Origin: a virus
IMG/VR virus record: IMGVR_UViG_3300017917_002759
Location: 36,841 to 100,840 of that record
DNA: 64,000 nt
Direction: 5' to 3' (one strand)
Shown here: positions 767-19,722 of the stretch, piece after piece
Layout of the letters: each line of letters begins with the position of its first letter
How positions within the stretch are numbered: position 1 is the first letter of the stretch
Position numbers and translations under genes: made by a program
Notes under the pieces: model-generated
The model's database searches: none
Told to the model about the DNA's origin: nothing
What the model saw: the letters and a program-made list of their open reading frames with translations, nothing else

Positions 767-1390
767 ATGGCAATATTAAAAAATACCACAGTATCCGGAT
801 CAAACCTATCGGTTTTAATACCGATAGGTACAACTGCCGAACGTCCTGGTACACCTTTAACAGGAATGATTCGTTATAACACTTCTCTTGTAGTCCCAGA
901 AACTTATACGGGACTAGTATGGGAACCATTGTATCCTGTAGGATCTATTATGTACTTTGCAAGAAGTACAGCACCCGATGGATGGTTAAAAGCCAATGGT
1001 GCTAGTGTTTCAACTACAACTTATGCGGCGTTATTTAATAACATAGGATATACCTGGGGCGGCGGCGGAGCCAGCTTTAATCTTCCAGATCTTAGAGGAG
1101 AATTTCCTAGATCATGGGACGACGGTCGAGGCGTAAATAGTGGTAGAAGTTTTGCTTCGGGCGAAGGACAAGATTGGAAAGGATTTTATCAAAGTAATAT
1201 TGGTTCGAATACAACGTCTTACTCCCATGGTGAAATATATATGGGAAAAACAATCTTTGGAACCTTTGCGGGTTCTCCAGGAATGTTTGGCGGACGATGG
1301 GCAGCACCTGCTGCTGCTATTGGTACTGCTTGGGACGGTTCAGAAATTAGACCAAGAAATCGAGCATTATTAGCTTGTATTAAATATTAA
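767..1390 (+). CDS. Tail-collar domain fibre protein, paralogue 1
   Basis: 207 residues. A short N-terminal beta region (TTAERPGTPLTGMIRYN) is followed by a Phage Tail Collar domain (about residues 57-115: VGSIMYFARS..PDGWLKANG...FNLPDLRGEF) and a C-terminal tip ending EIRPRNRALLACIKY, a common ending of T4 gp12-like and Stf-like fibres. It starts one base after the fibre stop, so it is probably co-translated with it. It is the first of three paralogues (1776-2384, 2394-3005) that differ mostly in the loops near the tip (SPGMFGGRWAAP here). Likely an adhesin subunit displayed at a fibre tip or baseplate. Confidence 0.8.
   Translation: MAILKNTTVSGSNLSVLIPIGTTAERPGTPLTGMIRYNTSLVVPETYTGLVWEPLYPVGSIMYFARSTAPDGWLKANGASVSTTTYAALFNNIGYTWGGGGASFNLPDLRGEFPRSWDDGRGVNSGRSFASGEGQDWKGFYQSNIGSNTTSYSHGEIYMGKTIFGTFAGSPGMFGGRWAAPAAAIGTAWDGSEIRPRNRALLACIKY
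1008..1107 (+). repeat. Near-identical DNA block shared by collar paralogues 1 and 3
   Basis: About 100 bp encoding the middle of the collar domain is almost the same, including synonymous positions, at 1008-1107 and 2629-2728. The second paralogue (1776-2384) encodes similar residues with different codons. This indicates recent gene conversion or duplication between paralogues 1 and 3. Confidence 0.7.
1379..1386 (+). promoter_or_regulatory. Putative late promoter octamer ATTAAATA
   Basis: T4-late-like octamer overlapping the end of collar gene 1. It lies 21 nt before the ATG at 1407, in the same spacing class as those before gp19 and the 52516 gene. Confidence 0.35.
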
Positions 1391-1406
1391 TAACATAGGA
1401 ACAAAA

Positions 1407-1766
1407 ATGAAAATTTACAATTATCATCCAGATACATATGAATACTTAGGCGAAGGAGTAGCAGATCCCGATCCTCTCGAGCCAGGTAATTGGTTAATAC
1501 CTGGAAGTTCCGTAACTTTTTCTCCGCCAGATCCAGTCGAAGGAAAGAAAATACATTTTGAAGATGGTGCTTGGGTATATAAGGATATTCCACCTCCGCC
1601 CGAAAATCCAACTGATAACTTTACCTATTCAGACTTTAGAAAATTTGAGTATCCAGATTTCGCTGATTATCTCGACGGTATTGTTAAAGGTGATCAACAG
1701 CAGATTGACGACTATATTGCTAAGTGTCTAGCAGTTAAAGCAAAGTATCCAAAACCTACGGAGTAA
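1407..1766 (+). CDS. Small acidic protein, possible tail-fibre assembly factor
   Basis: 119 residues. The N-terminal half (YHPDTYEYLGEGVADPDPL, then GNWLIPG, then HFEDGAWVYKD) resembles the start of phage tail-fibre assembly chaperones, which pair an early substrate-like Trp/Pro segment with a helical C-terminus. The C-terminal half (DFADYLDGIVKGDQQQIDDYI) is predicted helical. It sits between two fibre paralogues, the usual place of such chaperones. The function is inferred from position and sequence style only. Confidence 0.5.
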   Translation: MKIYNYHPDTYEYLGEGVADPDPLEPGNWLIPGSSVTFSPPDPVEGKKIHFEDGAWVYKDIPPPPENPTDNFTYSDFRKFEYPDFADYLDGIVKGDQQQIDDYIAKCLAVKAKYPKPTE

Positions 1767-1775
1767 ATTTTAAAG

Positions 1776-2384
1776 ATGGCAACCCTTCAAGGTTTAACTG
1801 TTAATGATACAGGTTTCCTTAGACTAGCAGTCGGAACTACTGCACAACGACCGGCAGCACAGATCGGTGCTGCTCGATTTAACACCACTACTCAACAAGA
1901 AGAGTGGTCAGACGGTGTCACATGGTATGAATTAGTTCCAACTGGTGCTGTTAGATATTTTGCAAGAAATTCTGCGCCCGACGGTTGGGTTAAAGCTAAC
2001 GGTGCAGGTCTTTCTACTTCTACATATGCAAATTTGTTTGCAGTAATAGGTTATACTTGGGGCGGTTCGGGAGGAACATTTAACGTGCCCGATATGAGAG
2101 GAGAATTTCCAAGAGTCTGGGATGACGGCCGAGGAGTAAATTCTGGTCGAAGCTTTGCTAGTTTTGAAGATCAAGACTGGAAAGGATTTTATCAAAGTAA
2201 CGTAGGTTCGGGCACCACTGCATACTCTCACGGACCAGTATATATGGGTAAAACTATCACAACCTATACTGGTAACTTATTTCTAGGACACTGGTCAGCT
2301 CCGGGTTCTTCATGGGGTACAGCTTGGGATACTTCTGAAATTAGACCAAGAAATGTATCATTATTAGCATGTATTAAGTTTTGA
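1776..2384 (+). CDS. Tail-collar domain fibre protein, paralogue 2
   Basis: 202 residues, same architecture as its two neighbours: N-terminal TTAQRPAAQIGAARFN segment, collar domain around residues 54-112 (TGAVRYFARNSAPDGWVKANG ... FNVPDMRGEF) and a tip ending EIRPRNVSLLACIKF. It is the most divergent of the three (tip loop YTGNLFLGHWSAP). The ATG at 1776 follows the previous stop by nine bases. Likely a receptor-contacting fibre subunit. Confidence 0.78.
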   Translation: MATLQGLTVNDTGFLRLAVGTTAQRPAAQIGAARFNTTTQQEEWSDGVTWYELVPTGAVRYFARNSAPDGWVKANGAGLSTSTYANLFAVIGYTWGGSGGTFNVPDMRGEFPRVWDDGRGVNSGRSFASFEDQDWKGFYQSNVGSGTTAYSHGPVYMGKTITTYTGNLFLGHWSAPGSSWGTAWDTSEIRPRNVSLLACIKF

Positions 2385-2393
2385 GGTATTAAC

Positions 2394-3005
2394 GTGGCCA
2401 CTTTAAAAAATATTACTATTGACGACACTGGAGCATTTGTTTTTCCTAGCGGAACAACTGCACAAAGACCGTCGCCGACAACAGGAATGATTCGTTATAA
2501 TACAGATATTGCTGCTCCTGAATTTTATACTGGATTAATATGGACCCCATTAATACCCACCGGAGCTATAGAATTATTTGCAACCTCAACAGTTCCTCAA
2601 GGCTGGCTAAAAGCTAACGGCGCATCAGTTTCAACTACAACTTATGCGGCGTTATTTAATGCCATAGGATATACCTGGGGCGGCGGCGGAGCCAGCTTTA
2701 GTCTTCCAGATCTCAGGGGAGAATTTATTCGTGCTTGGGATGATGGAAGAGGAGCAGATAGCGGAAGAGGGTTTGCTTCATTCCAAGACCAAGATTGGAA
2801 AGGTTTTTATCAAAGTAACGTAGGTTCAAACACAACAGCATATAGCCACGGTCCAGTATATATGGGCAAAACAATCTTTGGATCTTTTACAGGTAACTTA
2901 TTCGGTGGTAGATGGGCAGCTCCTGCCGCTGCATCCGGAACTAGATGGGATACTTCAGAAATGCGTCCAAGAAATCGAGCTCTAATGGCCTGTATTAAGT
3001 ACTAA
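2394..3005 (+). CDS. Tail-collar domain fibre protein, paralogue 3
   Basis: 203 residues beginning at GTG (MATLKNITI..., matching the start of paralogue 2). Collar domain at about residues 55-113, tip ending EMRPRNRALMACIKY. The central DNA block is nearly identical to paralogue 1, while the N- and C-terminal parts differ, giving a mosaic. The three collar genes and the intervening small gene form one co-directional group, probably alternative or combined host-range tips. Confidence 0.78.
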   Translation: MATLKNITIDDTGAFVFPSGTTAQRPSPTTGMIRYNTDIAAPEFYTGLIWTPLIPTGAIELFATSTVPQGWLKANGASVSTTTYAALFNAIGYTWGGGGASFSLPDLRGEFIRAWDDGRGADSGRGFASFQDQDWKGFYQSNVGSNTTAYSHGPVYMGKTIFGSFTGNLFGGRWAAPAAASGTRWDTSEMRPRNRALMACIKY

Positions 3006-3049: not shown

Positions 3050-3787
3050 ATGTTCAGAATTAAAAAACAAAAAAATTCATTTAAATTCTATTCTTCTCTG
3101 CCAGCAGTTACTAAAGAATTTCCAATAATAGAATCAAAATCGTTTAAAAGAAATTGGATTAGACCTGTTGCAGAATCTTATAAATCCATAACTTCCGATA
3201 TTAAAAATTTTGGAATTCCTTTTTCTGGAGCAATAAAATGTCCAGGAATTTTTTCTGCAATGAATACTGGTTGGATTTTAACTTCTTGGTTTGATTTCAT
3301 TATCGAAACTAAAAATAACGGAGAATCGTGTAGTTTTAAAATTCCGCCGTTTTTAAAAGACGAGGTAAAATTTTCAAATTACAATCAACCGTTAATTAGT
3401 TTTATGAATTTAAATCTGCCTACTATGAAAATTCCGGTACCAAATAATTCATTAGATATTTTAATAAAAATAACTACTCCGTGGGCAGTAGAAATACCTA
3501 AAGGTTGGAATTTATTGGTATTACCAGTTAGTTATTCAGATGATGTTAGATTTACTGCAAGCACAGGTATTTTAAAACCCGGTGATAGAGAAATCAATCC
3601 TCAGTTATTTTGGCATCAAGGTGATGGAACAGAACTTGTAGAAGCAGGAACACCTCTTTGTCAATTAATTCCTATACCAGACAATCAAGTTAATTTTGAT
3701 TTTGATTGTCTAGATTACGATGAAAATCAGAAAAAAGAGCAAGCAAGATATTCCTTCAAAAATGTTTGTAGGTTTATAACAAAATGA
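3050..3787 (+). CDS. Conserved protein of unknown function, tandem paralogue A
   Basis: 245 residues. First of three adjacent paralogues sharing an N-terminal FKFYSS..., a KCPGI motif near residue 64, Trp-rich LTSWFDFIIET, and a C-terminal PWAVEIPKGWNLLVLPVSY ... AGTPLCQLIPIP. The pattern is reminiscent of the DUF6065-type proteins of phages and bacteria (from memory, not verified). It is globular with no signal peptide or membrane segment. It lies between fibre genes and a tailoring operon, so it may process or decorate virion parts; this is inference. Confidence 0.65.
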   Translation: MFRIKKQKNSFKFYSSLPAVTKEFPIIESKSFKRNWIRPVAESYKSITSDIKNFGIPFSGAIKCPGIFSAMNTGWILTSWFDFIIETKNNGESCSFKIPPFLKDEVKFSNYNQPLISFMNLNLPTMKIPVPNNSLDILIKITTPWAVEIPKGWNLLVLPVSYSDDVRFTASTGILKPGDREINPQLFWHQGDGTELVEAGTPLCQLIPIPDNQVNFDFDCLDYDENQKKEQARYSFKNVCRFITK

Positions 3788-4530
3788 TATTTAAGAAAAA
3801 ACCAAAATTTAAATTTTATTCGAGCGTTCCGGGTGTAGTTGAGCAATATCCTATTTTATCAACAAAGGAAGTTCGACACTTATGGATTAAAAAAGCTTTA
3901 GAAATTTATAAAAAAAGAACATCAAATTTATCATCTTATGGTCCTCAATGTGTCAGTGCTGCAAAATGTCCAGGAATAAAAGATTTAGGAAATTTAGGTT
4001 GGACTGTAACTACTTGGTTTGACTTAATTATTGAAACTAACGGAAAAAATCAATTTGCATGGAAAGTACCTGCAACATTTCCGCAGAGCCTGCAACAAAT
4101 AACTAATTATGTAAAAGAACCTATAAAAGTTATAGACCTAACTCATTTAGAAAATCAAGTTCCAGTTCCGCCGTACAGCTTAGATTTGTTAGTTAAAATT
4201 TCAATGCCGTGGAGCGTGGAAATTCCTAAAGGTTGGAATTTATTAATGGTTCCTATTAATTACTCCGATGATACGAGATTTCAATGCTCTAGCGGAATTT
4301 TACGATCTGGAAATTTTGTAGAAGTTAATCCTCAGATATTTTGGAACGTATTATATGGACAAGAATTAATAAAAGCAGGAACACCTCTTTGTCAATTAAT
4401 TCCTATACCTGATCAATCTTTTGATATTGAACATCACTGTCTGAACATAACAGAAGAAGAAACGGCTCGAAAGAATAGTTTCTATTTTAGAAAAGGATGT
4501 ACATTTTTAAGGAATCCAAATGTTGTTTAA
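3784..4530 (+). CDS. Conserved protein of unknown function, tandem paralogue B
   Basis: 248 residues. The start overlaps the previous stop by four bases (ATGA), so translation is probably coupled. It shares FKFYSSVPGVVEQYPI, AAKCPGIKDLG, VTTWFDLIIET, PWSVEIPKGWNLLMVP and AGTPLCQLIPIPD with its neighbour. The strongest conservation is in the PKGW and AGTPLCQLIPI segments, which are likely structural or active-site elements. No catalytic signature is recognised. Confidence 0.65.
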   Translation: MIFKKKPKFKFYSSVPGVVEQYPILSTKEVRHLWIKKALEIYKKRTSNLSSYGPQCVSAAKCPGIKDLGNLGWTVTTWFDLIIETNGKNQFAWKVPATFPQSLQQITNYVKEPIKVIDLTHLENQVPVPPYSLDLLVKISMPWSVEIPKGWNLLMVPINYSDDTRFQCSSGILRSGNFVEVNPQIFWNVLYGQELIKAGTPLCQLIPIPDQSFDIEHHCLNITEEETARKNSFYFRKGCTFLRNPNVV

Positions 4531-5257
4531 AAAAGAAAAAATTGAATTTTATTCAACAAATGTAAATTCGTTATATTCTTTTCCGATCGAACCAGCCTCT
4601 AAAATAAAATTTAGTTGGTTAGAAAGGATGCGTACAACTCTCAAAAATAATCCTAAATATCAGTATCATCATACTTCCAAATGTCCGGGAATATTTACAC
4701 CTTATAAGTATGGATTTGTACTGAGAACTTGGTATGATTTCAAAGTTATCACAAATGGAGATTTAATGAATATCGAATTTCCTAATAACGATATATTTTT
4801 GAATACCAACGAAGGAATAAGTCATCACGATCCGGATTGGCTTGTAAATTTTTTCGACAATCAAACGATTGAAGGTAAAAAATGTCATCAAAGTACAGTT
4901 AAAATTAGCACTAGCTGGCATGTTCATTTACCTAAGGGATGGTTATTATTGCAAACTAATATACCCTACAACGAAGAAAATCGATTCACACCTGCAACTG
5001 GAATATATGATCCAACAGTTAATAATCAAATAACAGTACCTTTATTTTGGCATGAATTAAAATCGGAAACCCTTGTAGCAGCAGGTACACCATTATGTTA
5101 TCTGCTACCGATAAAAATAGGTGAGTTTGATTACGAAGTTCGAGAATCGACTCGAAGAGAAGACCAGTGGATGATTTTTAATCTAAGAAGAAATAATACT
5201 TTTTTAAGAAACTACGATTTAATGTCTCGAGTTTCTAAGAAATTTTTTCAAAAATAG
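4520..5257 (+). CDS. Conserved protein of unknown function, tandem paralogue C
   Basis: 245 residues, overlapping the end of paralogue B by 11 bases. It is more divergent but keeps KIEFYST, SKCPGIFTPYKYGF, LRTWYDF, WHVHLPKGWLLLQTNIPY and AGTPLCYLLPI. It ends directly against the convergent oxygenase gene (stop at 5257, neighbour stop at 5258), leaving no room for a separate terminator. Confidence 0.62.
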   Translation: MLFKKEKIEFYSTNVNSLYSFPIEPASKIKFSWLERMRTTLKNNPKYQYHHTSKCPGIFTPYKYGFVLRTWYDFKVITNGDLMNIEFPNNDIFLNTNEGISHHDPDWLVNFFDNQTIEGKKCHQSTVKISTSWHVHLPKGWLLLQTNIPYNEENRFTPATGIYDPTVNNQITVPLFWHELKSETLVAAGTPLCYLLPIKIGEFDYEVRESTRREDQWMIFNLRRNNTFLRNYDLMSRVSKKFFQK

Positions 5258-5830
5258 TTACTGAAAACTATCTCCGTGTATCCATCCTACTATGCAATAT
5301 CGAATTCCTTTAGTAACCTCAGTTACTCTATGAATTAGATATGACGGAAAAATTACAATACTTCCTTTCCTAACACTAGTATATTCAGAAAAAGACGGAA
5401 TAAACTCTAGAGTCCCGCCTTCAAATTCGTTAGGATCAGATAGTAGAATAGAAAAACTTAATTTTCTAGTAGATATATTTGTAGGACCAAAATCATTGTG
5501 CCAATCATAGTGCGATTTTTCTGCATCAGTATATCTAAACATTAACGGGGGGTCGTAGTCCTCAAATCCTTTAATGTTAAAATTGTAGAATTTTTTATTA
5601 GCATCAAAAACTTTTTCTAAAATTTTTGATGTAACAAGTTTAGGAAGTTCTTTCATCGCGATTTCAACCACTCGTATATCGTCCGTCTTACCAGTAATTT
5701 TAGAACCTATTGTTTTTCCGCTGACCCACTTATCGTCTAATATTTTTATCAGTGTGTCACACTCTTGAGTAGAAAACATATTTCCAACAATGATTAAATT
5801 TAGAAATTCGTTTTGTTTATTTTTATTCAT
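5258..5830 (-). CDS. 2OG-Fe(II) dioxygenase (prolyl 4-hydroxylase-like)
   Basis: 190 residues from ATG at 5830; this start overlaps the stop of the upstream oxygenase (ATGAATAA), which argues against the longer reading from 5896. Iron ligands are visible: the HxD pair in WHNDFGP, the distal His in YLIHRVTEV, and an Arg ten residues later (GIRYCIVGW) that would bind 2-oxoglutarate. GGTLEFIPS and KGSIVIFPSYLIHRV are typical of the PKHD/P4H double-stranded beta-helix. It probably hydroxylates a peptide, amino acid or small molecule. Last gene of the halogenase operon, so expected late. Confidence 0.8.
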   Translation of the reverse strand: MNKNKQNEFLNLIIVGNMFSTQECDTLIKILDDKWVSGKTIGSKITGKTDDIRVVEIAMKELPKLVTSKILEKVFDANKKFYNFNIKGFEDYDPPLMFRYTDAEKSHYDWHNDFGPTNISTRKLSFSILLSDPNEFEGGTLEFIPSFSEYTSVRKGSIVIFPSYLIHRVTEVTKGIRYCIVGWIHGDSFQ

Positions 5831-6365
5831 TATGATGAAGTCTATTAACAATTTGATCGTGTGCGTGATTAGCATAAGGACCATTTTTTCTAACATAATG
5901 AAAAAATGCTTGCGTCTGCCAATTTTGATGAATCATTTGATCTCTCCAATGCTCAATAGCACACCCTCGGTATATACAAGCATCGCCACGATTTAATATT
6001 ATCTGAAAATCTTGATCATTGCTTCTTGCCCAAAACGACCACGGTGACAGTGCATAATCTAGAGTAATTGTAAAACTGATTTCACAAGATTCTCTATCCA
6101 CATGTCTTTTTAAAATTTCTCCCCATTTATAAATTCTAGAATAATTATATGTTGGGATCAATTCCTCTCCCACTTCGTCTTCTACTTTTTTATGACACAA
6201 CGCTTGTATATCATTAAAAATTCCGTAAAAAGAAATGCTTTTTTTACATTGTACATCGTTGTAGTTTATGTTCGCTCCAGTTTGTTCAGACAAAAACATT
6301 CTCTGAGACATCGATCGACATATATCGTCTTTTATGAATTTTTTTGAAATAATAAAATCTTTCAT
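5823..6365 (-). CDS. 2OG-Fe(II) dioxygenase-like protein
   Basis: 180 residues. It has an HxD pair (KRHVDRESCEISFTITLDY), a GDACIYRGCAIEHWRD segment carrying the likely distal His, and a final strand QAFFHYV. The usual 2-oxoglutarate-binding Arg is not obvious at its normal place, so co-substrate use is uncertain. The fold assignment rests on the HxD...H order and the GD.xxYxGxxxEHxR pattern common in phage oxygenases. Two bases separate it from the carbamoyltransferase upstream, and it overlaps the second oxygenase downstream. Confidence 0.72.
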   Translation of the reverse strand: MKDFIISKKFIKDDICRSMSQRMFLSEQTGANINYNDVQCKKSISFYGIFNDIQALCHKKVEDEVGEELIPTYNYSRIYKWGEILKRHVDRESCEISFTITLDYALSPWSFWARSNDQDFQIILNRGDACIYRGCAIEHWRDQMIHQNWQTQAFFHYVRKNGPYANHAHDQIVNRLHHNE

Positions 6366-6366
6366 C

Positions 6367-8010
6367 TTAATTTACAATTTTTCCTATTTCTGGAAACCAC
6401 ACATAATCAAGATGAGAATTTTTTAAAGTTTCAATTGCTTCTGCAGGCTCTTCTATAAGCGGTTTTCCTGCTAAATTAAAACTAGTATTAAGTAAAACAC
6501 CGAAACCTGATATTTTTTTAAACTCAGTTAGCAACTCATAGATATGACCATCCTTGCTTGTAACTGTTTGAATTCTACATGTATTATCTGCATGAATTAC
6601 TCCTGAAATTTTGTTCCTTGCATCGGGCTTTACTGGAAAGCTCATAGTCATAAATGGACAGCTTGTAATGTGCCCCATTTCAAAAAATAAAGGAGCATCC
6701 TCTTCTAACACCATGGCAGCAAATGGTCGATACCATTCTCTGTTTTTAATTTTATTAACGATATCTTTTGCATCGGGGTGTGCTGGATTAAAAATAATCG
6801 ATCTATTACCCAATGCTCGCGGACCGCTTTCTGCTAGTCCGTTATATATTCCAACGCTTTTGTAATTATATAAAAGTTTAGCAATGTCTGATACATTACA
6901 CGATTCTCCCTCAATTCCTTCAAGAGAATATTTTTTTCCATGCACAAACGTATGCTGTATTGGTTTGATTACTGGATCCTGCGATTCGTTCCGATAAACA
7001 TACATAGCTCCTCCTAAACTGTTACCAGAATCATCTGCTAATGGTTCAAAGTAAAATTCAACATCCGGAAATTGAGTAGTATAGTAGTGATTTGCTACAA
7101 TATTTAATCCATAGCCGCCGGTTATGCATATCTTCTTCAGGCCTGTTTTTTCTATAGCTTTTTTTATCAAATGACAAACAGCTTCCTGTGACTGAACTTG
7201 AACTTGGTAAGCATAGTCTGCAAAAAATTGATAATTTTCTTTTGTTATATTTTTTCTAGAATGCACTTGTAATTCTTTATTAATAGCATACCACGATCCA
7301 GGAACTTCTGAACGGTCAAATAATAAATCGTTAGGAATATTTCCTGATAAAAATAATTTTGGAGCATTTGGATTAGGTCTCCCGTATGATGCTAATCCCA
7401 TAGTTTTTCCGTTTTCTAATACGCTCTGCTGGATTAGGGATGTTGCTGTTTCATAAACAGAAACTATACCGTACATGCTCTTGCATTGATGTTCGCACTT
7501 AGGATTTTTTTCGTATTGTTTTTGCATCCATCTATGTGTTTCGGCATTATATACATCAAACCAAAAATTCTTATATATTTCATGAAAATAACAAGGATAA
7601 CTTGCTTTAAAAATAGTTTCACATTCTCTAATATTATCATTTGCGTAAATCGATCCACTTCGATCAACAACAATAATTGCAGCTTCTTCAAACCCGCTAT
7701 TATAAAAAGCTAATGCAGCATGTTGAAGATGGTGTGTTTTAGAAAGATCAACAATAGCCTTCAACCCAGTTTTTTTCTGTAGATAAAATAGCCAGGTCAT
7801 TAGTGCCGGATGATCCGGGGCTGGTGCTCCTATAACGGCGTGATCTATAGGTCCTTTGGCTTCGGCTATTGCTCTATCAACTGATGCAAAAGGCTCGGCA
7901 TCTCTTTTCCATTTGGTCAGCCGTTCCTCTTTATAAAAAAGTTCTACTTCTCCGTCGTTGATGATACCAACCGAAGAATCGTGTAATGGACTGACACCTA
8001 ATACTCTCAT
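6367..8010 (-). CDS. NodU/CmcH-family carbamoyltransferase
   Basis: 547 residues, the usual length of the family. The N-terminal Kae1-like domain (MRVLGVSPLHDSSVGI, ERLTKWKRD, THHLQHAALAF, VVDRSGS, GLASYGRPN, ITGGYGLN) carries the metal/nucleotide-binding segments. The C-terminal YrdC-like domain (ESGPRALGNRSIIFNP, WYRPFAAMV, LNTSFNLAGKPLIEEP) forms carbamoyl-adenylate. Known members transfer carbamoyl from carbamoyl phosphate to hydroxyl groups of sugars or antibiotics. Here the acceptor is unknown; a hydroxyl made by the adjacent oxygenases or a glycan is a reasonable guess. Confidence 0.92.
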   Translation of the reverse strand: MRVLGVSPLHDSSVGIINDGEVELFYKEERLTKWKRDAEPFASVDRAIAEAKGPIDHAVIGAPAPDHPALMTWLFYLQKKTGLKAIVDLSKTHHLQHAALAFYNSGFEEAAIIVVDRSGSIYANDNIRECETIFKASYPCYFHEIYKNFWFDVYNAETHRWMQKQYEKNPKCEHQCKSMYGIVSVYETATSLIQQSVLENGKTMGLASYGRPNPNAPKLFLSGNIPNDLLFDRSEVPGSWYAINKELQVHSRKNITKENYQFFADYAYQVQVQSQEAVCHLIKKAIEKTGLKKICITGGYGLNIVANHYYTTQFPDVEFYFEPLADDSGNSLGGAMYVYRNESQDPVIKPIQHTFVHGKKYSLEGIEGESCNVSDIAKLLYNYKSVGIYNGLAESGPRALGNRSIIFNPAHPDAKDIVNKIKNREWYRPFAAMVLEEDAPLFFEMGHITSCPFMTMSFPVKPDARNKISGVIHADNTCRIQTVTSKDGHIYELLTEFKKISGFGVLLNTSFNLAGKPLIEEPAEAIETLKNSHLDYVWFPEIGKIVN

Positions 8011-8013
8011 TTT

Positions 8014-9600
8014 TTAATCCTCAAAATAATAATTGGTTTTTAGAAAATCATATAAGGTTTGTTCTTGGTTAGCAGCTTCCTCCCAGCGCGATTTTCTTCT
8101 TTCAAATTCTTTAAACATTTGATCGTATTTAATTTTATGATCAGTTAAATCTTGTGTTTGAAATATTTTTTCAGTAATATCGTCAAATACAAAATAGTTC
8201 ATTCCTGCCGCCACCCAATTAATTCCCGATGTATCCGGCAAAGAATAATCATACATTTTACTTTGCGATAATGTATTAAATCCGCCAATTAATTGATTAG
8301 GAACTATAAATTTTAGATATTCTCTTTGAGAATTTTCCTTCCAATAATTAGTATCGTCTCTAATACTCAACGCATAATGCAAAGAAATAAATTCTGCAAA
8401 CGACCTAAACATATTATAGGTTGTTTTATTATATACATCTCGATCCCATTGGGTTATTGAGTTTTTTGATATTGTTTTTAATAATTTGAACAAAAATTCA
8501 TGGACACTGTATAGGCCGTTAGATTCTAAAGGCTCTAAAAACCCTGCACTTAGTCCTATAGCAACTACATTTTTTACAAATGTTCGTTCATGAATCCCTA
8601 CACGCATCGTTACATCTTTAAATTTTAAATTATCTATTTCTTCTTTTGATCTAGGAATTAACATTTTGTTCGACATGAGATAATTTTTAAATTCTTCAAG
8701 TGCATTATCTGGATCTATATGTTTATCTGAATAAACATATCCAGTCCCTAATCTGCTCCATAGCGGAGTATTCCACACCCATCCATGCCCTATTGCGGTA
8801 CAATGTGTAAATGGTTCGATTTCTTTCGGCTTATCTTTATAAGGAACTTGGCATGCCCAAGCTCGGTTATTAATTAAAATATCTTCAAAAGATTTAAATG
8901 GTTCTTTTAAAGTTTGTCCTATTAATAAACTTCTAAACCCGGTACAATCGATATAAAGATCTGAAACAACAGTGTCACCGGTGTCTAAAATTAATTCTTT
9001 TATTCCGTAGTCGTCTGTTTTTATATCAGTAACAGTGGCTGGTATTAATTTAACACCCCGAGGCAGACAATATTTTAATTTTAACCAAGCTCCGAATTTA
9101 GTAGCATCAAAATGATATGCTACATCATTCTTTGGGGTAAAATTATCAAAGTTTTTTTTAGAATTTAAACTAAACTTGTTGTTTCGAAATAGTGCTGCTG
9201 AAGGAAAATAACAATCTACAAAATCTTGATTTGGAGTTTCCGGGTACAGTGCTTTTTTAATTAACCAGTCTTGAGTAGATTTTGAAACATTGTTTAAAAC
9301 CGGCGCACCGAAAGGGTAATGAAACGATCCAGAATCCTTTTCGTAAAAATCAGTAAATTTAATGCTCATTTTAAGAGTAGCATCTGTATATTTTATAAAA
9401 TCTTTTTCATCTATATCAAGATAATGACAAAAAGTTTTAATTGCACCTAAGGTACTTTCCCCAACACCTATAATAGGAATGTTTGGACTTTCTATCACAG
9501 TAATTTCTTTTTCTGGAAAAGATTTTACAAATGCAGCGGCCGACATCCAGCCCGCACTTCCTCCACCGACGATTGTGATAGTGTTAATTTTTTTAATCAT
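8014..9600 (-). CDS. Flavin-dependent (tryptophan-type) halogenase 1
   Basis: 528 residues. FAD-binding GGGSAGW at 12-18 and GVGEST at 45-50; a Lys at 81 in the SIKF motif, equivalent to the catalytic Lys79 of PrnA; the flavin halogenase GWVWNTP motif at 273-279; Glu359 in EPLESNG, equivalent to Glu346 of PrnA. All catalytic landmarks are therefore present. These enzymes use FADH2, O2 and halide to halogenate aromatic substrates. The start overlaps the stop of halogenase 2 by four bases (ATGA), so the pair is translationally coupled. The substrate is unknown. Confidence 0.93.
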   Translation of the reverse strand: MIKKINTITIVGGGSAGWMSAAAFVKSFPEKEITVIESPNIPIIGVGESTLGAIKTFCHYLDIDEKDFIKYTDATLKMSIKFTDFYEKDSGSFHYPFGAPVLNNVSKSTQDWLIKKALYPETPNQDFVDCYFPSAALFRNNKFSLNSKKNFDNFTPKNDVAYHFDATKFGAWLKLKYCLPRGVKLIPATVTDIKTDDYGIKELILDTGDTVVSDLYIDCTGFRSLLIGQTLKEPFKSFEDILINNRAWACQVPYKDKPKEIEPFTHCTAIGHGWVWNTPLWSRLGTGYVYSDKHIDPDNALEEFKNYLMSNKMLIPRSKEEIDNLKFKDVTMRVGIHERTFVKNVVAIGLSAGFLEPLESNGLYSVHEFLFKLLKTISKNSITQWDRDVYNKTTYNMFRSFAEFISLHYALSIRDDTNYWKENSQREYLKFIVPNQLIGGFNTLSQSKMYDYSLPDTSGINWVAAGMNYFVFDDITEKIFQTQDLTDHKIKYDQMFKEFERRKSRWEEAANQEQTLYDFLKTNYYFED

Positions 9601-11111
9601 TTGGCACCTAATATTGATAAAAATTTTCTATGATCAAATACTGATTTTGCACTATCATAAACTGTTGAAAGATATTTTTTAAAATAAATGTTCCACTCTG
9701 ATTGTAGTTGCTTATCTTCGAATGATTTCTTATAAACAGAGGGCTCGAGCTCTCCATTGCCTCCTAACACGTAAAGCCAATTTGCTTGCCCAAAAATTTT
9801 AAAAAGTGATTGATCATCGTTATCGATTGGTCGTTGTTTCCATAAATTGATTGTCTTTTTTAGATTATCTGGAGCATTCTCCCAAGTGAATTTTTTCCAA
9901 AATTCAGTATCGTCTCGGTGAGTCACATAATGAGAATATAAAAATTCCATAATGTGTGTATTCATAGAAACTATTTTTTCATTATAGCTATCTATAACGT
10001 CTTGATTTAAATCTTCTGATAAAGTTAAACTATTTTTTAATAGTTCGAGACTTCTTATTGACATCATTATCGATGTAGCTTCTAAAGGTTCGGTAAAACC
10101 GCTCGACAATCCGATAGCCACACAGTTATTGATCCATGTTTTTTCGTAGCACCCAGCCTTAAATTTAAATGTTTTTACTGGTTCAATTTTTTGTTTCAAC
10201 ACTGATTCAATTTCTTCTTGAGCCTCTTTCTCGTTGATATATGAACTATCGAAAATATAACCGCAACCCGTTCTATGCTGAAGGGGAATTTTCCACATCC
10301 AACCATGTTTCATTGCTAAGGCAGTAGTATAAGGTTCAACATCATTTTTACTCGGTAAGAAAAATGCTAGAGCAGTATCAACCGGGAGAAACTTATTATA
10401 ATTAATCCAGGGAGAATTGAATTTTTTTCCGATAATTAGTCTTTGGAAACCTGTGCAATCAAAAATAAAATCTAAATCTAATAATTTATCATCTTCTAAA
10501 ACTAGAGATTTTATTTTTTTATTTTGATCAAAAACAATATCTTTTATGTTAGATTCTATTCGATTTATATTTCTATCTTTTGCAATTTTTTTAAGATATT
10601 CTGCTAATAATCTAGCATCAAAATGTAGAGCAAAGGTTCCCACTTCTTTTAAATTATTTGCCGAATCGACGAAAAACGGAACTTTATTTTTTTCACTATA
10701 TACACAATAAGTTGTAGTTCTTCCTGGATTGATTTCGTTAGCTAACATACCATGTGTTAAAAATGATCCTTGTACATTAAAGAACCTAGTTCCGTAATTG
10801 CATTCATTAAGGTGAGGATTAGATACCGCAAATGGATGATAATAATATTCATTATCACCGTTCCAATTTTCAAATTTTATTGATATTTTTAAACTACCAT
10901 TGGTTTCTTTGATTACAGATTTATAATCAATATCTAATTGTTCAAAAAAATCAATAATATTAGGTGTAGTTCCCTCACCAGCACCTAATATGCCAATATC
11001 ACTGCTTTCTACTACAGTAATATTGGCATTAGGAAATAATTTTCTTGAAAAAAGAGCGGTAAGCCAACCAGCAGTACCGCCACCTGCGATAATAATATTT
11101 TTGGTATCCAT
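9597..11111 (-). CDS. Flavin-dependent (tryptophan-type) halogenase 2
   Basis: 504 residues. FAD motif GGGTAGW at 10-16, GAGEGT at 43-48, catalytic Lys79 in ISIKFENW (same number as in PrnA), WMWKIP at 271-276, and Glu344 in TEPLEAT. Its FENW and WKIP versions are closer to canonical tryptophan halogenases than halogenase 1, so the two may act on different substrates. It is the first gene of the operon. The ATG lies seven bases after a perfect TATAAATA octamer, so the mRNA should be leaderless or nearly so. Confidence 0.93.
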   Translation of the reverse strand: MDTKNIIIAGGGTAGWLTALFSRKLFPNANITVVESSDIGILGAGEGTTPNIIDFFEQLDIDYKSVIKETNGSLKISIKFENWNGDNEYYYHPFAVSNPHLNECNYGTRFFNVQGSFLTHGMLANEINPGRTTTYCVYSEKNKVPFFVDSANNLKEVGTFALHFDARLLAEYLKKIAKDRNINRIESNIKDIVFDQNKKIKSLVLEDDKLLDLDFIFDCTGFQRLIIGKKFNSPWINYNKFLPVDTALAFFLPSKNDVEPYTTALAMKHGWMWKIPLQHRTGCGYIFDSSYINEKEAQEEIESVLKQKIEPVKTFKFKAGCYEKTWINNCVAIGLSSGFTEPLEATSIMMSIRSLELLKNSLTLSEDLNQDVIDSYNEKIVSMNTHIMEFLYSHYVTHRDDTEFWKKFTWENAPDNLKKTINLWKQRPIDNDDQSLFKIFGQANWLYVLGGNGELEPSVYKKSFEDKQLQSEWNIYFKKYLSTVYDSAKSVFDHRKFLSILGAK

Positions 11112-11117
11112 TAAGGA

Positions 11118-11125
11118 TATTTATA
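11118..11125 (-). promoter_or_regulatory. Perfect T4 late promoter octamer TATAAATA for the halogenase operon
   Basis: Exact T4 late consensus on the minus strand ending seven bases before the ATG at 11111. It predicts late (gp55-type sigma) transcription of the five-gene operon 11111-5258. Confidence 0.75.
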
Positions 11126-11149: not shown

Positions 11150-12706
11150 TTATGATTTTGTAATTTCATACACAAACCCACTTCTAAAGGGCTGCTGCAG
11201 ATATCTATTTTCTGCCGATTGGAGACTTGATAAATCAGTAAATCCGCCACCACTGTTTGTTAATCTATTTTGTACCGCTGAATTAGTAAGCCAAGTATTA
11301 GTTTTATCTAGATTATAATCAGGTCTAGATTCTAACATACAAGCAACGACCCCTGCAACTTGTGGCGAAGCCATAGAAGTCCCGCCAATCTTAGTGCTCT
11401 TAAAATCAGTATTAGCAGGATAATCTACTGATCCTGAATTTGTTTCGATATTAGAACCTTCAGGTATAGCACTGATAATATTTTCTCCAGGAGCAAACAC
11501 AGTAATTCGAGGACCTGTATTACTGAATAAACTTTTTGCTTCTGTTGTCGCAGCTCTTATTGAACCGACACATGCGACTCCCGGTACTGCTGACGGAGTA
11601 GATCCTTGGTGATAAAATACTTGTCCCACCCCGGTTTTGTTATAAAAATTATTAAAATCTTGTCCAGTCGGCACATCGATTTTGTGTGCTTCGTTGCCGG
11701 CAGCGCCTATCAAAATTACGCCGTCGTCAATACAATCTTCAATATCTGCATCTACAGAAGAAACTCGAACAGGATGTATATAAGTAAATGGAGCAGATGA
11801 TCCTTGCCTATTGTAAATTGTTTGGATCATGCCGTATGCAGAGATCATGGTTGTACCGGACCAAGGTGTTCCGCGATACTCTCCTCCGCTGATATTGGTA
11901 TAAGTTGTAAAATATTCCCAACTCATATTAACTACAGTCGGTCTTCTATACCCAGTTTCTGCAATAATAGGTTTTAAATTATGCCACGCTCTAATCATGT
12001 TAAAACTAGCTGATACACCAAATGCCGCAGGATTGTCTATAATAGTAATCGCATAAATGTTGGCTCTTTTAGCCCAACCGTACAATCTGCCAGCAGCAGT
12101 TCCAGCCACGTGGGTTCCATGACCGTCTGGATCAGTATAATGATTAGGGTCTTGAGTGTATGTTCCTGTTAGGCCGCTAATACTAGGCCAATTGACTTGT
12201 TGAAATCTACTGGCTGTACCAGCTAAATTTAACCATTCCGGATGATTAAGAAGAATTCCGCTATCTTGTATAACAATATCAACACCGTTGCCTGTTAATG
12301 TGTAACCGTGATTATAATTTAACGTGCCCGATGTTGCAAAAAAATTATCTGGGAATGAACAGGCAGGGATGGCCCAGTTATAATGATTAGAATTTAGATC
12401 CGGTTCTTTTGAATAAGTCCTTGCCTCCTCTATAATGCTAGGCCTAATAAAAATACCATTTTCTATCTTAGTACCAAATCTTACATCGACTATTCTCGGA
12501 TCATTTTTTAATAATATTGCTTCCTCTAACGTTAAGACAAAATCAACGTTTCGTTTGCTGTCAATTTTTTCATTATATAATTCTACTTGACGGTTTGGCA
12601 TCCACTGATTATGATTTGTACCGCTGACCATATCTTCGATAAATGCATCAACATCGACTCCTTTTTTTAACGTTACAACTGCTTTATTTTGATCTTCTGT
12701 ACTCAT
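11150..12706 (-). CDS. Subtilisin-like (S8) serine protease
   Basis: 518 residues. Complete catalytic triad Asp148 (VIQDSGI), His196 (DGHGTHVAGT) and Ser444 (GGTSMASPQVAG), with oxyanion Asn338 (GAAGNEA). Residues 1-110 look like an I9-type propeptide (AVVTLKKGVDVDAFIEDM; DPRIVDVRFG), and no signal peptide is evident. It starts two bases after the stop of a virion-like protein and follows a fibre gene, so it may be virion-associated: maturing fibres, or degrading a host surface layer. A role in host lysis or intracellular processing is also possible. Confidence 0.9.
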   Translation of the reverse strand: MSTEDQNKAVVTLKKGVDVDAFIEDMVSGTNHNQWMPNRQVELYNEKIDSKRNVDFVLTLEEAILLKNDPRIVDVRFGTKIENGIFIRPSIIEEARTYSKEPDLNSNHYNWAIPACSFPDNFFATSGTLNYNHGYTLTGNGVDIVIQDSGILLNHPEWLNLAGTASRFQQVNWPSISGLTGTYTQDPNHYTDPDGHGTHVAGTAAGRLYGWAKRANIYAITIIDNPAAFGVSASFNMIRAWHNLKPIIAETGYRRPTVVNMSWEYFTTYTNISGGEYRGTPWSGTTMISAYGMIQTIYNRQGSSAPFTYIHPVRVSSVDADIEDCIDDGVILIGAAGNEAHKIDVPTGQDFNNFYNKTGVGQVFYHQGSTPSAVPGVACVGSIRAATTEAKSLFSNTGPRITVFAPGENIISAIPEGSNIETNSGSVDYPANTDFKSTKIGGTSMASPQVAGVVACMLESRPDYNLDKTNTWLTNSAVQNRLTNSGGGFTDLSSLQSAENRYLQQPFRSGFVYEITKS

Positions 12707-12708
12707 TT

Positions 12709-13602
12709 TTAACCTCTATATAACTGTATATAATCTATGTGAAAATTGTCTCCGGACGAAGTCCCAAAGTCGAATCTTAATCCGGTGATGGTATTATCAA
12801 CCCAATCAGTGCCGCCGGCAAATAATGTTTCCATATTAACTGTGATTATTTGAAAGTTTCCGTCCCAGGTGGGTTCAGTCATTAATGCTTTAAAACTTTC
12901 CGAAAATTGATTTCTACCCTGTCTTGTAAAATATAAACTTCCGTCCCAGCCAGTTCCAGATAATCTTCTCAATCTGATATCTATTCTATTATAGTTTCTA
13001 CCGTCGAAACTGACCTGTGCAGTTCTTTGAATAGAAGGATCGGTAGCAGTAGAATTAGTTAAAATAACACCTGTAGCATTTATTTGGACATAATCGACAT
13101 CAATGTCCCAACCAAAATAATTCCCATCGCTAGGAAAATCCAAGAAATTACCGGCACCACCTATTAATCTTTTTGTAACAACAGTAAAAGTATTTAACGG
13201 TAATTCGCTATCAGAAATAGTTGTTCCAGTACCGTCACCATAGTCTATGAATAAACTACCCGTGCCCGCCCTTCTTCTTAACCTGGCAGTAACGATTACT
13301 TCTCTAGTATCATAATTTGTTAAATTACTAAACCTCATTAAAGAATTTCCAAATGTTTGAAACTGCCAACGATATGTTCCGTCAAAGTTATTTGTATCAT
13401 TAACATTGTTAAAAACATCAGTGGCACTGTTACCCTCTAGTTGTGCTCCGGTGACTGCCGATAACAGTGTAATTGTGGCATTAGTTCCTGTAAAACTTTC
13501 TGTACCCGAATCGAATGCATAGACAATGGGAGTTATTGTAGGTATAGTAACAACGCCATTAACTGCATAAATGCGATTAGGTAGTAAAGTAATTGCTGGC
13601 AT
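12709..13602 (-). CDS. Predicted virion surface protein with beta-sandwich features
   Basis: 297 residues, mostly beta-strand. The sequence alternates small polar residues and aromatic-Asp patterns (YRWQFQTFGNSLMRFSNL, GWDIDVDYVQI, GDNFHIDYIQLYRG) like jelly-roll carbohydrate-binding or laminin-G-type modules, seemingly in two related halves. Starts one base from the end of the long fibre gene and ends beside the protease, so the three form one transcription unit. Likely a fibre-tip or accessory adhesin; no family is confidently recognised. Confidence 0.55.
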   Translation of the reverse strand: MPAITLLPNRIYAVNGVVTIPTITPIVYAFDSGTESFTGTNATITLLSAVTGAQLEGNSATDVFNNVNDTNNFDGTYRWQFQTFGNSLMRFSNLTNYDTREVIVTARLRRRAGTGSLFIDYGDGTGTTISDSELPLNTFTVVTKRLIGGAGNFLDFPSDGNYFGWDIDVDYVQINATGVILTNSTATDPSIQRTAQVSFDGRNYNRIDIRLRRLSGTGWDGSLYFTRQGRNQFSESFKALMTEPTWDGNFQIITVNMETLFAGGTDWVDNTITGLRFDFGTSSGDNFHIDYIQLYRG

Positions 13603-13603
13603 A

Positions 13604-16327
13604 TTAATAACTTTGCGCCGATGCTAATACAGTCCATGTACCGCCAGATCTAATAAATGAGAAAGAAAATATCTGTCTTCTACTAGATACTGCTGAGGGA
13701 ACAATATTATTAGCCCAATTTATGGTTTGATTTACCCCTGCGATTTGAACAGCAGTCGGTCTTCTACCAGTAGCACCTTGCACGATTATCAACACCGCGG
13801 AATAGCTATAGTTGTTAGTAGTTGGTACATTAGTAAAGTTTGCGGTAAAATCTGCAGATGGGTTAGTATGTAGAAAAATTGCTCCAGCTGCCCAGTTGTG
13901 TGTAACTGTACCAGTAGCTGCGTTAATAGTCTGAAATAATTCTGCAGTTTGTTGTATTGTAGCTGTGCCGGTTGTAGTGAATGAAGTAGAAGTTAAAGAG
14001 CTAAATGCACCTGTGCTTATAGTTGTAGAACCTATAGGTGTATTTTGAATACTTGCACCAGCAATCGCTCCCCCTACATTTAATGCACCACTAATACCTA
14101 CACCGCCGGTTACTACTAACGTACCTGTAGTAGTCGAAGAGGATGATGTATTTTGTGTGAATGTTACTGCGCCGCCAGCACTAAAAGCACTACCAACATT
14201 TAATGCTTGACTGATTCCAACACCACCGGTTACTACTAACGTACCTGTACTGGTACTTGAAGAATTTGTTCCGGCGGTAAGTGTTACTGCGCCGTTAGCA
14301 GCTACCGTAGTAAAAGCTCCGGAACTTCTAGTAACAGAACCTATAGGCGTGTTTTGAATACTTGAAGCATCGATAGTGCCCCCTACATTTAAGGCACCGC
14401 TAATACCAACTCCCCCAGTAACGGTTACTGCACCTGTTGTAGTAGAAGTCGAAGCGGTGCCGCTGATAAATGATGAATCACCACTTACAGTACCGCCAGT
14501 AAATCCCGGAGGATCACCCCATTCTGGAGGTAAAGAAGTTCCTCTAGATGTTAAAACCTTTCCTAGAGAACCATAATCTGTTCCATCGAAACTAATAGCT
14601 CCTGTATTATTGAACTGTAGCTTAATAGTGCCTATACCGTCAGCAATAATAACATGACTATTCAATCCATTAATTCCAGAACCACTATTTCCTCCAATAA
14701 TAACATTGTTATCACCGGAAAGTATAGCACTGCCTGCTAAGTATCCTATGGCTAAATTTGCCGCACCTTGATGTAATTTTAACGCATCGGTGCCTATTCC
14801 AATACATTGACTTCCTGCAGTTTTATCTGCCATTACAGAATTACCGATAGCGATATTGTCGTTACCGTCTGTGTGTTGGCCAAGAGTAGAAAACCCTATA
14901 GCGATAGCGTTAAACCCGCTAACATTTGAACCTAAAGGAGCATTGATACCGGTGCCACCACCGATCGCTACGTTTTGTGCAAACCCCGAACCAATGGCAG
15001 CTCCGTTGCCAAATCTAATACCATTAAAAAATCCGTCGCCGCCCGCATACAAACTTCTGCCAATACCAACACCGCCTGTTACACGCAAAGCACCTGTGGT
15101 GGTAGATGTCGATGCTGTGGCATTATTAACAAATATTGTACCAGAAATTGTACCACCATTAAAACCGCCAGATAATGATGTTAATACAGCACTTCCGCCG
15201 GAAAATATAGTTCCGCCTACATACATCGCACCACCGACTCCTACACCGCCTGTTACGGTAAGAGCACCCGTGGTAGTTGAAGTTGATGCAGTTGAAGAAG
15301 TTACATTAATTGCGTTTGGAACTGTTCCGCCCTGGAAAGCACTAGCCGCACCATCAACATATTGTTTATTAACTGCATCTGTAAGTTCAATAGGGGCAGC
15401 TAAATTCGTTATTCTGCTGTTTTTAACATTAATATCGCCGGGTGTTTCTATAATAAAATCTGAACCAGTCCTTAAAGTGAATACTCCTAAACCATTATCA
15501 AAAATTTCTGGGACAGCCAGACTTACTCCAACAACTGCACCACCATTGACTAATAAAGTATTATCGACTTCTAAATTGTTATCGATAATTACATCATTAT
15601 CAACAGTAATATTTGAAGTTTCTAGAGTATTAGTATTAGATATCCATTTAAGATTAATTCCAGCAGACGATAGGACATTTCCGTTAGAATCATATATTGG
15701 TAATTCACCAGTACTGCCATTCTCGATAACCCCGGCAGCATCTAAATCAATAGCGGCAATTGAATTATCAACATAAGTTTTTACAGCACTTTCTGTAGGA
15801 ACAGCGGTAGGCGAATTATCGACCATAAGAGCGTCTGTGCTGAATTCTGTGATTTCGGCTCCTACTTTAAACTGTATAGAATCCATATTCGACAATACAG
15901 TTAAATTTGCAACGGAGTCAGCCGTTAGTAGCCCTTGTGCATTAATACTTAGACCTGCTCCGATTTTTACCGTTCCTAAGGTAGTAGCGGTAGCTACAGT
16001 GTTAAAAGCATTCTGAACGTCAGTGAGAGTAGCAATATTTGTAGGAAGAGGAAGATTCGTAAGCTGGCTTCCGTCACCAATGAACGCTTGTGCTTGGAGA
16101 GTCTTTGATCCAAAATTTACAGTACCGCTACCGCCGCCACCGCCTCCGGAAATATTAGCTAGATCAGCCCGCAACAGGGGAAACCCGCCGGGCTGCTCTC
16201 CATCATAGATTCTGATCGTTTTTTCGTTAGAGTCGTAGTATATTTCACCGCTGTTAAACGAATTTACATCGAGAAATTCGTCAATATTGGGTCTTAATCT
16301 AATTGACCTTTCTATATTCCCTGCCAT
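13604..16327 (-). CDS. Long repetitive tail fibre protein
   Basis: 907 residues. The N-terminal attachment region (IRLRPNIDEFLDVNSF...SGEIYYDSNEKTIRIYDGE) leads into a Gly-rich linker and a shaft with five copies of a module like STTTGALTVTGGVGVGGAL. Between copies 2 and 3 there is a YadA-type left-handed beta-roll segment (repeated NxAIG: NVAIGGGT, NAIAIGFST, NIAIGNSVM, NLAIGYLAG). The C-terminal about 90 residues (FLHTNPSADFTANFTNVP...) form a separate tip. There is no S74 chaperone. Start at ATG 16327 with AGAGGA upstream. Probably a trimeric fibre. Confidence 0.85.
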   Translation of the reverse strand: MAGNIERSIRLRPNIDEFLDVNSFNSGEIYYDSNEKTIRIYDGEQPGGFPLLRADLANISGGGGGGSGTVNFGSKTLQAQAFIGDGSQLTNLPLPTNIATLTDVQNAFNTVATATTLGTVKIGAGLSINAQGLLTADSVANLTVLSNMDSIQFKVGAEITEFSTDALMVDNSPTAVPTESAVKTYVDNSIAAIDLDAAGVIENGSTGELPIYDSNGNVLSSAGINLKWISNTNTLETSNITVDNDVIIDNNLEVDNTLLVNGGAVVGVSLAVPEIFDNGLGVFTLRTGSDFIIETPGDINVKNSRITNLAAPIELTDAVNKQYVDGAASAFQGGTVPNAINVTSSTASTSTTTGALTVTGGVGVGGAMYVGGTIFSGGSAVLTSLSGGFNGGTISGTIFVNNATASTSTTTGALRVTGGVGIGRSLYAGGDGFFNGIRFGNGAAIGSGFAQNVAIGGGTGINAPLGSNVSGFNAIAIGFSTLGQHTDGNDNIAIGNSVMADKTAGSQCIGIGTDALKLHQGAANLAIGYLAGSAILSGDNNVIIGGNSGSGINGLNSHVIIADGIGTIKLQFNNTGAISFDGTDYGSLGKVLTSRGTSLPPEWGDPPGFTGGTVSGDSSFISGTASTSTTTGAVTVTGGVGISGALNVGGTIDASSIQNTPIGSVTRSSGAFTTVAANGAVTLTAGTNSSSTSTGTLVVTGGVGISQALNVGSAFSAGGAVTFTQNTSSSSTTTGTLVVTGGVGISGALNVGGAIAGASIQNTPIGSTTISTGAFSSLTSTSFTTTGTATIQQTAELFQTINAATGTVTHNWAAGAIFLHTNPSADFTANFTNVPTTNNYSYSAVLIIVQGATGRRPTAVQIAGVNQTINWANNIVPSAVSSRRQIFSFSFIRSGGTWTVLASAQSY

Positions 16328-16348
16328 CCTAATTTCCTCTATATGTAA

Positions 16349-16356
16349 TATTTACC
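16349..16356 (-). promoter_or_regulatory. Putative late promoter octamer GGTAAATA
   Basis: Minus-strand late-type octamer 22 nt before the fibre ATG at 16327; the short leader carries a Shine-Dalgarno sequence. It would drive the fibre, virion-protein and protease genes. Confidence 0.5.
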
Positions 16357-16380
16357 CTTTTCAGCAAGGGGTAAAGATGG

Positions 16381-16641
16381 CTAATATTTAGGTATTTTTT
16401 GTTCTAATTTTGCTCTTATGGATTGCAGCTTTGTTTGCAAATCGTCTGATTGTGTTTTATTGGCTAGTCTTTCAGAAATTAATAAATCAAAATTTTGATC
16501 TATTTGTTTTATGAGCATGATATATTGATCATAAAGACTTTTTAACTCTGATTTAAGGGCTCGATCGTTAATTTCTTCAATAGCATTAATATATCGATCT
16601 TTGTCTTTTTTAAATCTTGGATGATTTTGTATAGTTGTCAT
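16381..16641 (-). CDS. Small coiled-coil protein
   Basis: 86 residues, highly charged and predicted almost entirely helical (AIEEINDRALKSELKSLYDQ; IRAKLEQKIPKY). Its ATG overlaps the stop of the Nudix-like gene by four bases, so it is co-translated with the neck/tail genes. No family is recognised. It could be a small structural or chaperone component. Confidence 0.6.
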   Translation of the reverse strand: MTTIQNHPRFKKDKDRYINAIEEINDRALKSELKSLYDQYIMLIKQIDQNFDLLISERLANKTQSDDLQTKLQSIRAKLEQKIPKY

Positions 16642-17024: not shown

Positions 17025-17035
17025 GCCAGTACTTA

Positions 17036-19707: not shown

Positions 19708-19714
19708 AGTACTA

Positions 19715-19722
19715 TATTTACC
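19715..19722 (-). promoter_or_regulatory. Putative late promoter octamer GGTAAATA (gp14 side)
   Basis: Minus-strand octamer in the 33-bp gap between the divergent gp14 and gp13 starts, ending eight bases before the gp14 ATG. Confidence 0.5.

Follow-up and report, generated by a model that had tools for sequence, protein, structure and literature searches.

The stretch of viral DNA considered here, called the window below, comprises 64,000 nucleotides (nt), positions 36,841 to 100,840, of the 100.8-kb IMG/VR virus record IMGVR_UViG_3300017917_002759. The virus is a tailed phage, and near the start of the window lies a genuine operon of five genes, halA, halB, CT, oxyA and oxyB, which are intact, tightly spaced and retain the codons of the catalytic residues. 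Their products are two flavin-dependent halogenases, a carbamoyltransferase (CT) and two 2-oxoglutarate (2OG)-Fe(II) oxygenases, listed here with their lengths in amino acids (aa).

9597..11111, minus strand: halA, predicted flavin-dependent halogenase from a clade of phage enzymes separate from that of VirX1 (504 aa; PF04820 match, tree)
8014..9600, minus strand: halB, predicted flavin-dependent halogenase of the VirX1 clade (528 aa; match to 6qgm, tree)
6367..8010, minus strand: CT, O-carbamoyltransferase of the NodU/TobZ type (547 aa; Carbam_trans_N and Carbam_trans_C, phrog_1601)
5823..6365, minus strand: oxyA, predicted 2OG-Fe(II) oxygenase with a prolyl-hydroxylase-like fold (180 aa; HxD...HxR, model, Foldseek)
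5258..5896, minus strand: oxyB, 2OG-Fe(II) oxygenase (212 aa from the first ATG; PF13640)

The sequence-only reading of this DNA had described the genes as tightly packed, and the spacing bears this out, ranging from a 4-nt overlap (halA/halB) through a 1-nt gap (CT/oxyA) to a 3-nt gap (halB/CT), with no room left inside the operon for a separate precursor-peptide gene. The true start of oxyB more likely lies at 5830, giving a protein of 190 aa, because the relative of oxyB in phage contig L011 (L011:7985-8524) starts there; the overlap with oxyA then amounts to 8 nt, compared to 74 nt from the first ATG. The five-gene order, which that reading had proposed to look for in phage genomes, is found at 52–69% protein identity in L011 and L012, two IMG/VR contigs that are near-identical and therefore represent one further phage species, not two. 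In their array, a third halogenase and one additional gene stand before halA, halB, CT, oxyA and oxyB, after which come the convergent genes c, b and a of family phrog_7084 and three collar proteins, with identities of 52–76%. No nucleotide-level match to window positions 1–25000 was found in the phage collection. Arrays of looser composition, in which one to three halogenases are joined by 2OG oxygenases, phrog_7084 and sometimes a CT, are present in L021, L042/L043, L114, L124, L139 and L159, as well as in L160, L162–L168, L172, L229 and L231, and the order is shuffled, with halogenase, 2OG oxygenase, CT and phrog_7084 genes recurring variously in L114, L159, L160, L162–L168, L172 and L229. 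The operon is conserved, and its combination of enzymes is not unprecedented.

Both halogenases match PF04820 (Trp_halogenase; cut-off 21), halA with 391 bits (7e-117) and halB with 351 bits (1e-104). An alignment of the two with 22 other phage halogenases contains in both the GxGxxG motif as well as the catalytic Lys, the WxWxxP motif and the EPLE glutamate that the sequence-only reading had claimed for them. All 24 proteins, VirX1 included, share the catalytic Lys (K75 in halA) and the first Glu of EPLE (E341) without exception, and the WxWxxP motif takes the form WMWKIP in halA and WVWNTP in halB, the latter departing from WxWxIP. Halogenation activity is predicted for both from the catalytic residues that they keep. 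Flavin reductase (PF01613) was not found in the record, which may be a fragment, and the host or a missing part of the genome may supply it. The TerL of the record is nearest (54%) to that of PA5oct-type jumbo phages of ~287 kb, so that absences from the record, of flavin reductase here and of thymidylate synthase below, are weak evidence.

In a tree of 138 rows, built by a quick method with support from the Shimodaira–Hasegawa-like approximate likelihood ratio test only, halB falls in an all-phage clade together with VirX1 (30 rows, support 100); another phage clade holds halA (39 rows, support 99). Since they occupy separate supported clades, the two are not recent duplicates; an origin by recent tandem duplication is ruled out by the position of halA outside the VirX1 clade. 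The best PDB match of halB is VirX1 itself (6qgm, 328 bits across the full length). VirX1, the first viral halogenase to be characterised, shows an unusual preference for iodide, and its natural substrate is not given in the review that describes it; its active site is large and accessible and takes bulky substrates (PMC8407142). In bacterial genomes, at least two flavin halogenase genes of the PF04820 type lie within 10 kb in 44 of the 80 loci nearest to halA (L250–L329). These proteobacterial tandem loci resemble the window in that respect and differ from it in having phrog_7084/DUF6065, oxyA and CT in none of the 80.

Three paralogous genes of family phrog_7084, encoding proteins of 245–248 aa, converge on the operon from the opposite strand.

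3050..3787, plus strand: phrog_7084 paralogue a, dUTPase fold, DUF6065 superfamily (phrog_7084 match 1e-38; model)
3784..4530, plus strand: phrog_7084 paralogue b (PHROG match; counterpart in L011)
4520..5257, plus strand: phrog_7084 paralogue c, meeting the operon with zero gap (PHROG match; counterpart in L011)

None of the window copies has a direct Pfam match, PF19541 (DUF6065) not being reached at E 0.01. However, PF19541 is matched by 8 of the 58 members of the family (best 1.9e-34), and the reciprocal phrog_7084 profile recovers bacterial DUF6065 proteins, down to 1e-17. A model of paralogue a, built from a 58-sequence alignment, has a predicted local distance difference test (pLDDT) score of 92.7; in a Foldseek search of the PDB, all 50 matches listed are dUTPases (best E 8e-5, template-modelling score by target length at most 0.63), which a profile search also finds weakly (E 0.01). 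The family belongs to the DUF6065 superfamily and has a dUTPase-like fold; no paper naming DUF6065 was found in a literature search. An active dUTPase was considered and rejected, as the fold fits but the catalytic motifs are not kept in the window copies. In a comparison by eye with the dUTPase motifs, the position of the motif-3 Asp is occupied by K in copy a, R in copy b and D in copy c, and the GFGSTG-like, glycine-rich tail of motif 5 is present in none of the three. In S-CREM1 a phrog_7084 gene is annotated 'triphosphate nucleotidohydrolase'.

The association of this family with halogenases, like its dUTPase-like fold and its place in the DUF6065 superfamily, is new here, and the association is the most novel element of the locus. 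A scan of phage contigs with phrog_7084 alone gave 26 non-redundant loci with flanks, and a halogenase gene lies within 5 kb, usually overlapping, in 23 of them and directly adjoins phrog_7084 on the same strand in 18; many of the loci are cyanophage-like with shared synteny, so that they do not amount to 26 independent events, and unlike contigs are present among them too. The family often adjoins phage flavin halogenases, the loci in question being window 3050–5257, L008:13580-14368 and L170–L249. A general role of phrog_7084/DUF6065 as a partner of bacterial halogenases was tried and discarded, with no linkage in 80 halogenase loci or in 37 DUF6065 loci (mostly with 1.5-kb flanks); unlike their phage counterparts, bacterial DUF6065 genes do not stand beside halogenases, and the link is therefore phage-specific as far as tested.

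Of the oxygenases, oxyB matches 2OG-FeII_Oxy_3 (PF13640) with 54.7 bits (2e-14, cut-off 27) and contains HxD. The product of oxyA gave no match in the Pfam scan, and its PHROG family, phrog_2954, bears the name 'ferrochelatase'. This label is wrong, judging from the model, because HxD...HxR is conserved across the oxyA family and the predicted structure (pLDDT 90.8) resembles 2OG oxygenases of the prolyl-4-hydroxylase type, the top Foldseek matches being to the prolyl-4-hydroxylase of P. putida (3e-9). The assignment of oxyA as a 2OG-Fe(II) oxygenase is accordingly upheld by motif and modelled fold, despite the lack of a Pfam match. The same name, 'ferrochelatase' for what is a 2OG oxygenase family, masks oxygenases in cyanophage records (L001, L005, L375), and genes labelled 'DNA endonuclease V' in cyanophage clusters may likewise be mislabelled oxygenases.

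Both domains of the carbamoyltransferase, Carbam_trans_N and Carbam_trans_C (PF02543, PF16861), were found in CT, which matches phrog_1601 at 1e-123. Sufficient flanking sequence was available for 25 non-redundant CT loci; a halogenase lies within 4 kb in 5 of them (the window included) and an oxyB-type gene in 13. A phage-type carbamoyltransferase acting on 5-hydroxymethylcytosine (5hmC) is known (MetaGPA, PMC8670742), and shares with the window CT its phage origin and the Carbam_trans superfamily. It raises the question of DNA or nucleotide hypermodification, in which the oxygenases would make hydroxymethyl bases, CT would carbamoylate them (to 5-carbamoyloxymethylcytosine) and the dUTPase-fold proteins would act on nucleotides. 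The comparison with the published enzyme sequence does not support 5hmC carbamoylation, since CT scores 37 bits against that enzyme and 138 bits against TobZ. The GNRS...REWYRPF stretch, altered in the 5hmC enzyme, is intact in CT. Nor was any gene of the thymidylate-synthase family (PF00303), which supplies the partner of the 5hmC enzyme, found in the 100.8-kb record, itself possibly a fragment. The oxygenases have no TET/JBP match, the oxyA fold is prolyl-hydroxylase-like, and the motif-3 Asp is missing from two of the three phrog_7084 copies. Carbamoylation of nucleic acid by CT is unlikely, and hypermodification of DNA as the purpose of the whole locus is highly improbable.

The operon is preceded by an octamer of the T4 late type.

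11118..11125, minus strand: TATAAATA, candidate late promoter element of the T4 type, upstream of halA and 6 nt from its ATG

The octamer is not over-represented in the window, where TATAAATA is seen 3 times against ~9 expected. A chance occurrence, suggested by this count, was dropped when placement across the record came out as non-random: of the 18 NATAAATA sites that the 100.8-kb record contains, 14 are found no more than 60 nt upstream of an open reading frame (ORF) on the same strand, against a background of 7.2% obtained from AT-only octamers. The record likely carries a T4-type late promoter system, because the giant fibre, neck, tail-tube and further genes also have a NATAAATA site in front of them. 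This placement lends the earlier claim of late timing support from sequence. If T4 geometry applies, the halA transcript would be nearly leaderless. The phage with this motif has a TerL that most resembles those of the PA5oct-type jumbo phages.

The position claimed for the operon, beside fibres and a protease, is also confirmed by its neighbours.

767-1390, 1776-2384 and 2394-3005, plus strand: three tail-collar proteins (PF07484), conserved with the operon in L011
within 767..3005, plus strand: 119-aa ORF among the collar genes, conserved with the operon in L011
11150..12706, minus strand: subtilase upstream of the operon (phrog_9158; PF00082, 1e-25)
19741: gp13-type neck/adaptor gene (phrog_211)

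A single ORF of ~3,540 aa (G000:C1:26971-37605), probably the giant tail-fibre gene, ends at window position 765, just before the collar genes. The sequence-only reading had expected such enzymes to co-occur with structural genes in related phages, and 12 of the 20 large genes flanking the arrays in other contigs are indeed tail or virion genes; the flanking families phrog_11196, 11591 and 9158 are present at window 11150–19749 as well. Comparable sets of enzymes adjoin tail genes in other phages of aquatic origin. In the window, Sf-CH11, S-RIM44, Sf-FP1 and S-SSM7, the cassette has fibre genes on one side and a gp13-type neck gene on the other, and this common position could result either from transfer between phage lineages or from an old shared locus. 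Collar proteins were also considered as a marker of a shared substrate and rejected, strong collar matches beside halogenases being limited to the window and L011.

The late motif, the placement among tail genes and the tail or virion genes in 12 of 20 flanks make modification of the virion the leading reading: the locus would be a tailoring cassette of T4-superfamily phages that occupies the fibre-to-neck region, is expressed late, varies by recombination and acts on virion surface proteins or their glycans. We favour it tentatively, at somewhat less than an even chance. The earlier claim of virion modification has support from position and timing, whereas the substrate, like the enzyme activities, the order of the steps and the role of the partner proteins, is inferred. 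The closeness of the oxyA fold to protein prolyl hydroxylases, the open site of VirX1 for bulky substrates, the lack of room for a precursor-peptide gene, the shuffled content of the cassettes, the two halogenase clades and the phrog_7084 linkage in 23 of 26 loci all count in its favour. In such a scheme, the halogenases would use host-supplied FADH2, O2 and halide to generate an enzyme-bound hypohalite and halogenate aromatic side chains and, belonging to two subfamilies, would probably have different acceptors. Both oxygenases would hydroxylate side chains, and CT would O-carbamoylate hydroxyls, perhaps the products of the oxygenases or groups on attached sugars. The targets would be virion surface proteins, such as fibres and collar proteins, or their glycans, with the DUF6065-like proteins of dUTPase fold acting as partners, for example by presenting the substrate to a halogenase. 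A changing set of marks might alter adsorption or shield the tips.

Several observations weigh against this reading. Late tail loci are general hotspots of accessory genes, so that position alone is weak evidence, and what oxyA acts on cannot be read from its fold match. No late octamer was found directly before the operon in the closest relative, L011/L012. In S-B64 a VirX1-type gene adjoins recombination genes, and in HTVC008M a halogenase adjoins the terminase. Relatives of CT adjoin sugar genes in S-CAM1, S-CAM3 and S-SCSM2R, which favours glycans or metabolites. The halogenase of Mic1, an unrelated phage, has been reported as middle-phase (PMC11237433), and late timing should therefore not be assumed everywhere.

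The locus might itself be such a hotspot, where unrelated enzymes were gathered by recombination and share no pathway; the content of the arrays is highly variable among relatives, and CT, halogenase and 2OG oxygenase genes occur separately too. Yet the five-gene order is held at 52–69% protein identity in another phage, the genes are tightly coupled in translation, and a halogenase is near phrog_7084 in 23 of 26 loci, so that we regard a chance gathering as quite improbable.

The statement of the sequence-only reading that a coupled halogenase pair with oxygenases was not known is contradicted by the VirX1 pair, by annotated tandem pairs (P-RSM6, P-TIM40, S-RIM44) and by the S-SSM6a cluster; in a comparison from 2010 (PMC3037559), one cyanophage can be seen to have two prnA genes. 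In Syn10, VirX1 is encoded by CPUG_00131, which comes second in a tandem pair of halogenase genes. As in the window, this locus (CPUG_00132-00119) has tandem halogenases after tail genes and a relative of oxyA: a phrog_7084 gene lies directly downstream of VirX1 and overlaps it, and next comes a run of small genes with the oxyA relative as its last member; in S-CREM1 the corresponding run is annotated as 2OG oxygenases. Syn10 differs in that both its halogenases belong to the halB/VirX1 clade, which makes the window pair a different combination, in having one phrog_7084 copy compared to three, in the absence of any CT found in the run, and in belonging to another phage lineage.

The S-SSM6a cluster contains carbamoyltransferases, a halogenase and 2OG oxygenases and has been read as decorating a metabolite or the capsule (Iyer et al. 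2021, PMC7824862). S-SSM6a and S-SSM7 share with the window the combination of CT, halogenase and 2OG oxygenase, located in S-SSM7 between tail fibres and gp13. They differ from it in having two CTs, one halogenase, internal sugar kinase, isomerase and epimerase genes, and no annotated counterpart of phrog_7084. No HemK-like methylase or sugar-phosphatase gene of the S-SSM6a type was found among the scanned neighbours in the window, where the sugar genes lie 25 kb off. That published reading suggests a small-molecule pathway, in which an amino acid or sugar of the infected cell would be turned into a halogenated, hydroxylated and carbamoylated antibiotic, toxin or signal. Metabolites are the substrates of the solved CT relatives (TobZ, novobiocin carbamoyltransferase, GdmN), free tryptophan is that of many flavin halogenases, and pyrrolnitrin-like chemistry has been suggested in cyanophage papers. 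However, neither a backbone-forming enzyme nor a gene for a precursor peptide turned up in the operon or next to it, and the late promoter, the fibre locus and the open site of VirX1, which takes large substrates, fit a metabolite poorly; we consider this pathway a serious alternative, albeit on the unlikely side.

The sugar cluster at window 36809–41338 comprises two GT8 glycosyltransferases, an epimerase, a UDP-glucose dehydrogenase, a cytidylyltransferase/mannose-phosphate isomerase fusion and a methyltransferase. Its genes (36.8–41.3 kb), like the sugar genes beside the CTs of the three phages named above, would suit modification of the host surface (lipopolysaccharide, capsule or outer-membrane proteins) that blocks superinfection or adsorption to debris. 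They stand outside the operon, at 25 kb from it, and late expression comes late for superinfection exclusion; a host-surface target is distinctly unlikely.

Within the favoured reading of virion modification, we can speculate further on a combinatorial tail-surface chemistry, in which two or three halogenase subfamilies, oxygenases of the prolyl-hydroxylase type and CT, reshuffled within a late cassette, would be served by dedicated phrog_7084 partners that present virion proteins to VirX1-type halogenases, the three copies of the window possibly as a heterotrimer; this fuller version is itself rather unlikely. If true, such a chemistry would give VirX1 a natural substrate and phrog_7084 a function, and two leads for VirX1 follow from the locus: the tail setting points to virion proteins as its substrate, and the overlapping phrog_7084 gene to a partner of dUTPase fold. 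Should virions be halogenated, hydroxylated or carbamoylated, the surface chemistry of phages would gain a new layer that bears on host recognition, and the locus would offer halogenases that act on proteins.

Two further observations concern the neighbours of such arrays. The phrog_9158 subtilase flanks the enzyme array both in the window and in L167, where it forms one portion of a 1,445-aa protein (L167:236-4573) that also matches a baseplate-hub family. In L162 and L229, a gene for a GroEL-like phage chaperonin adjoins the halogenase/2OG oxygenase arrays.

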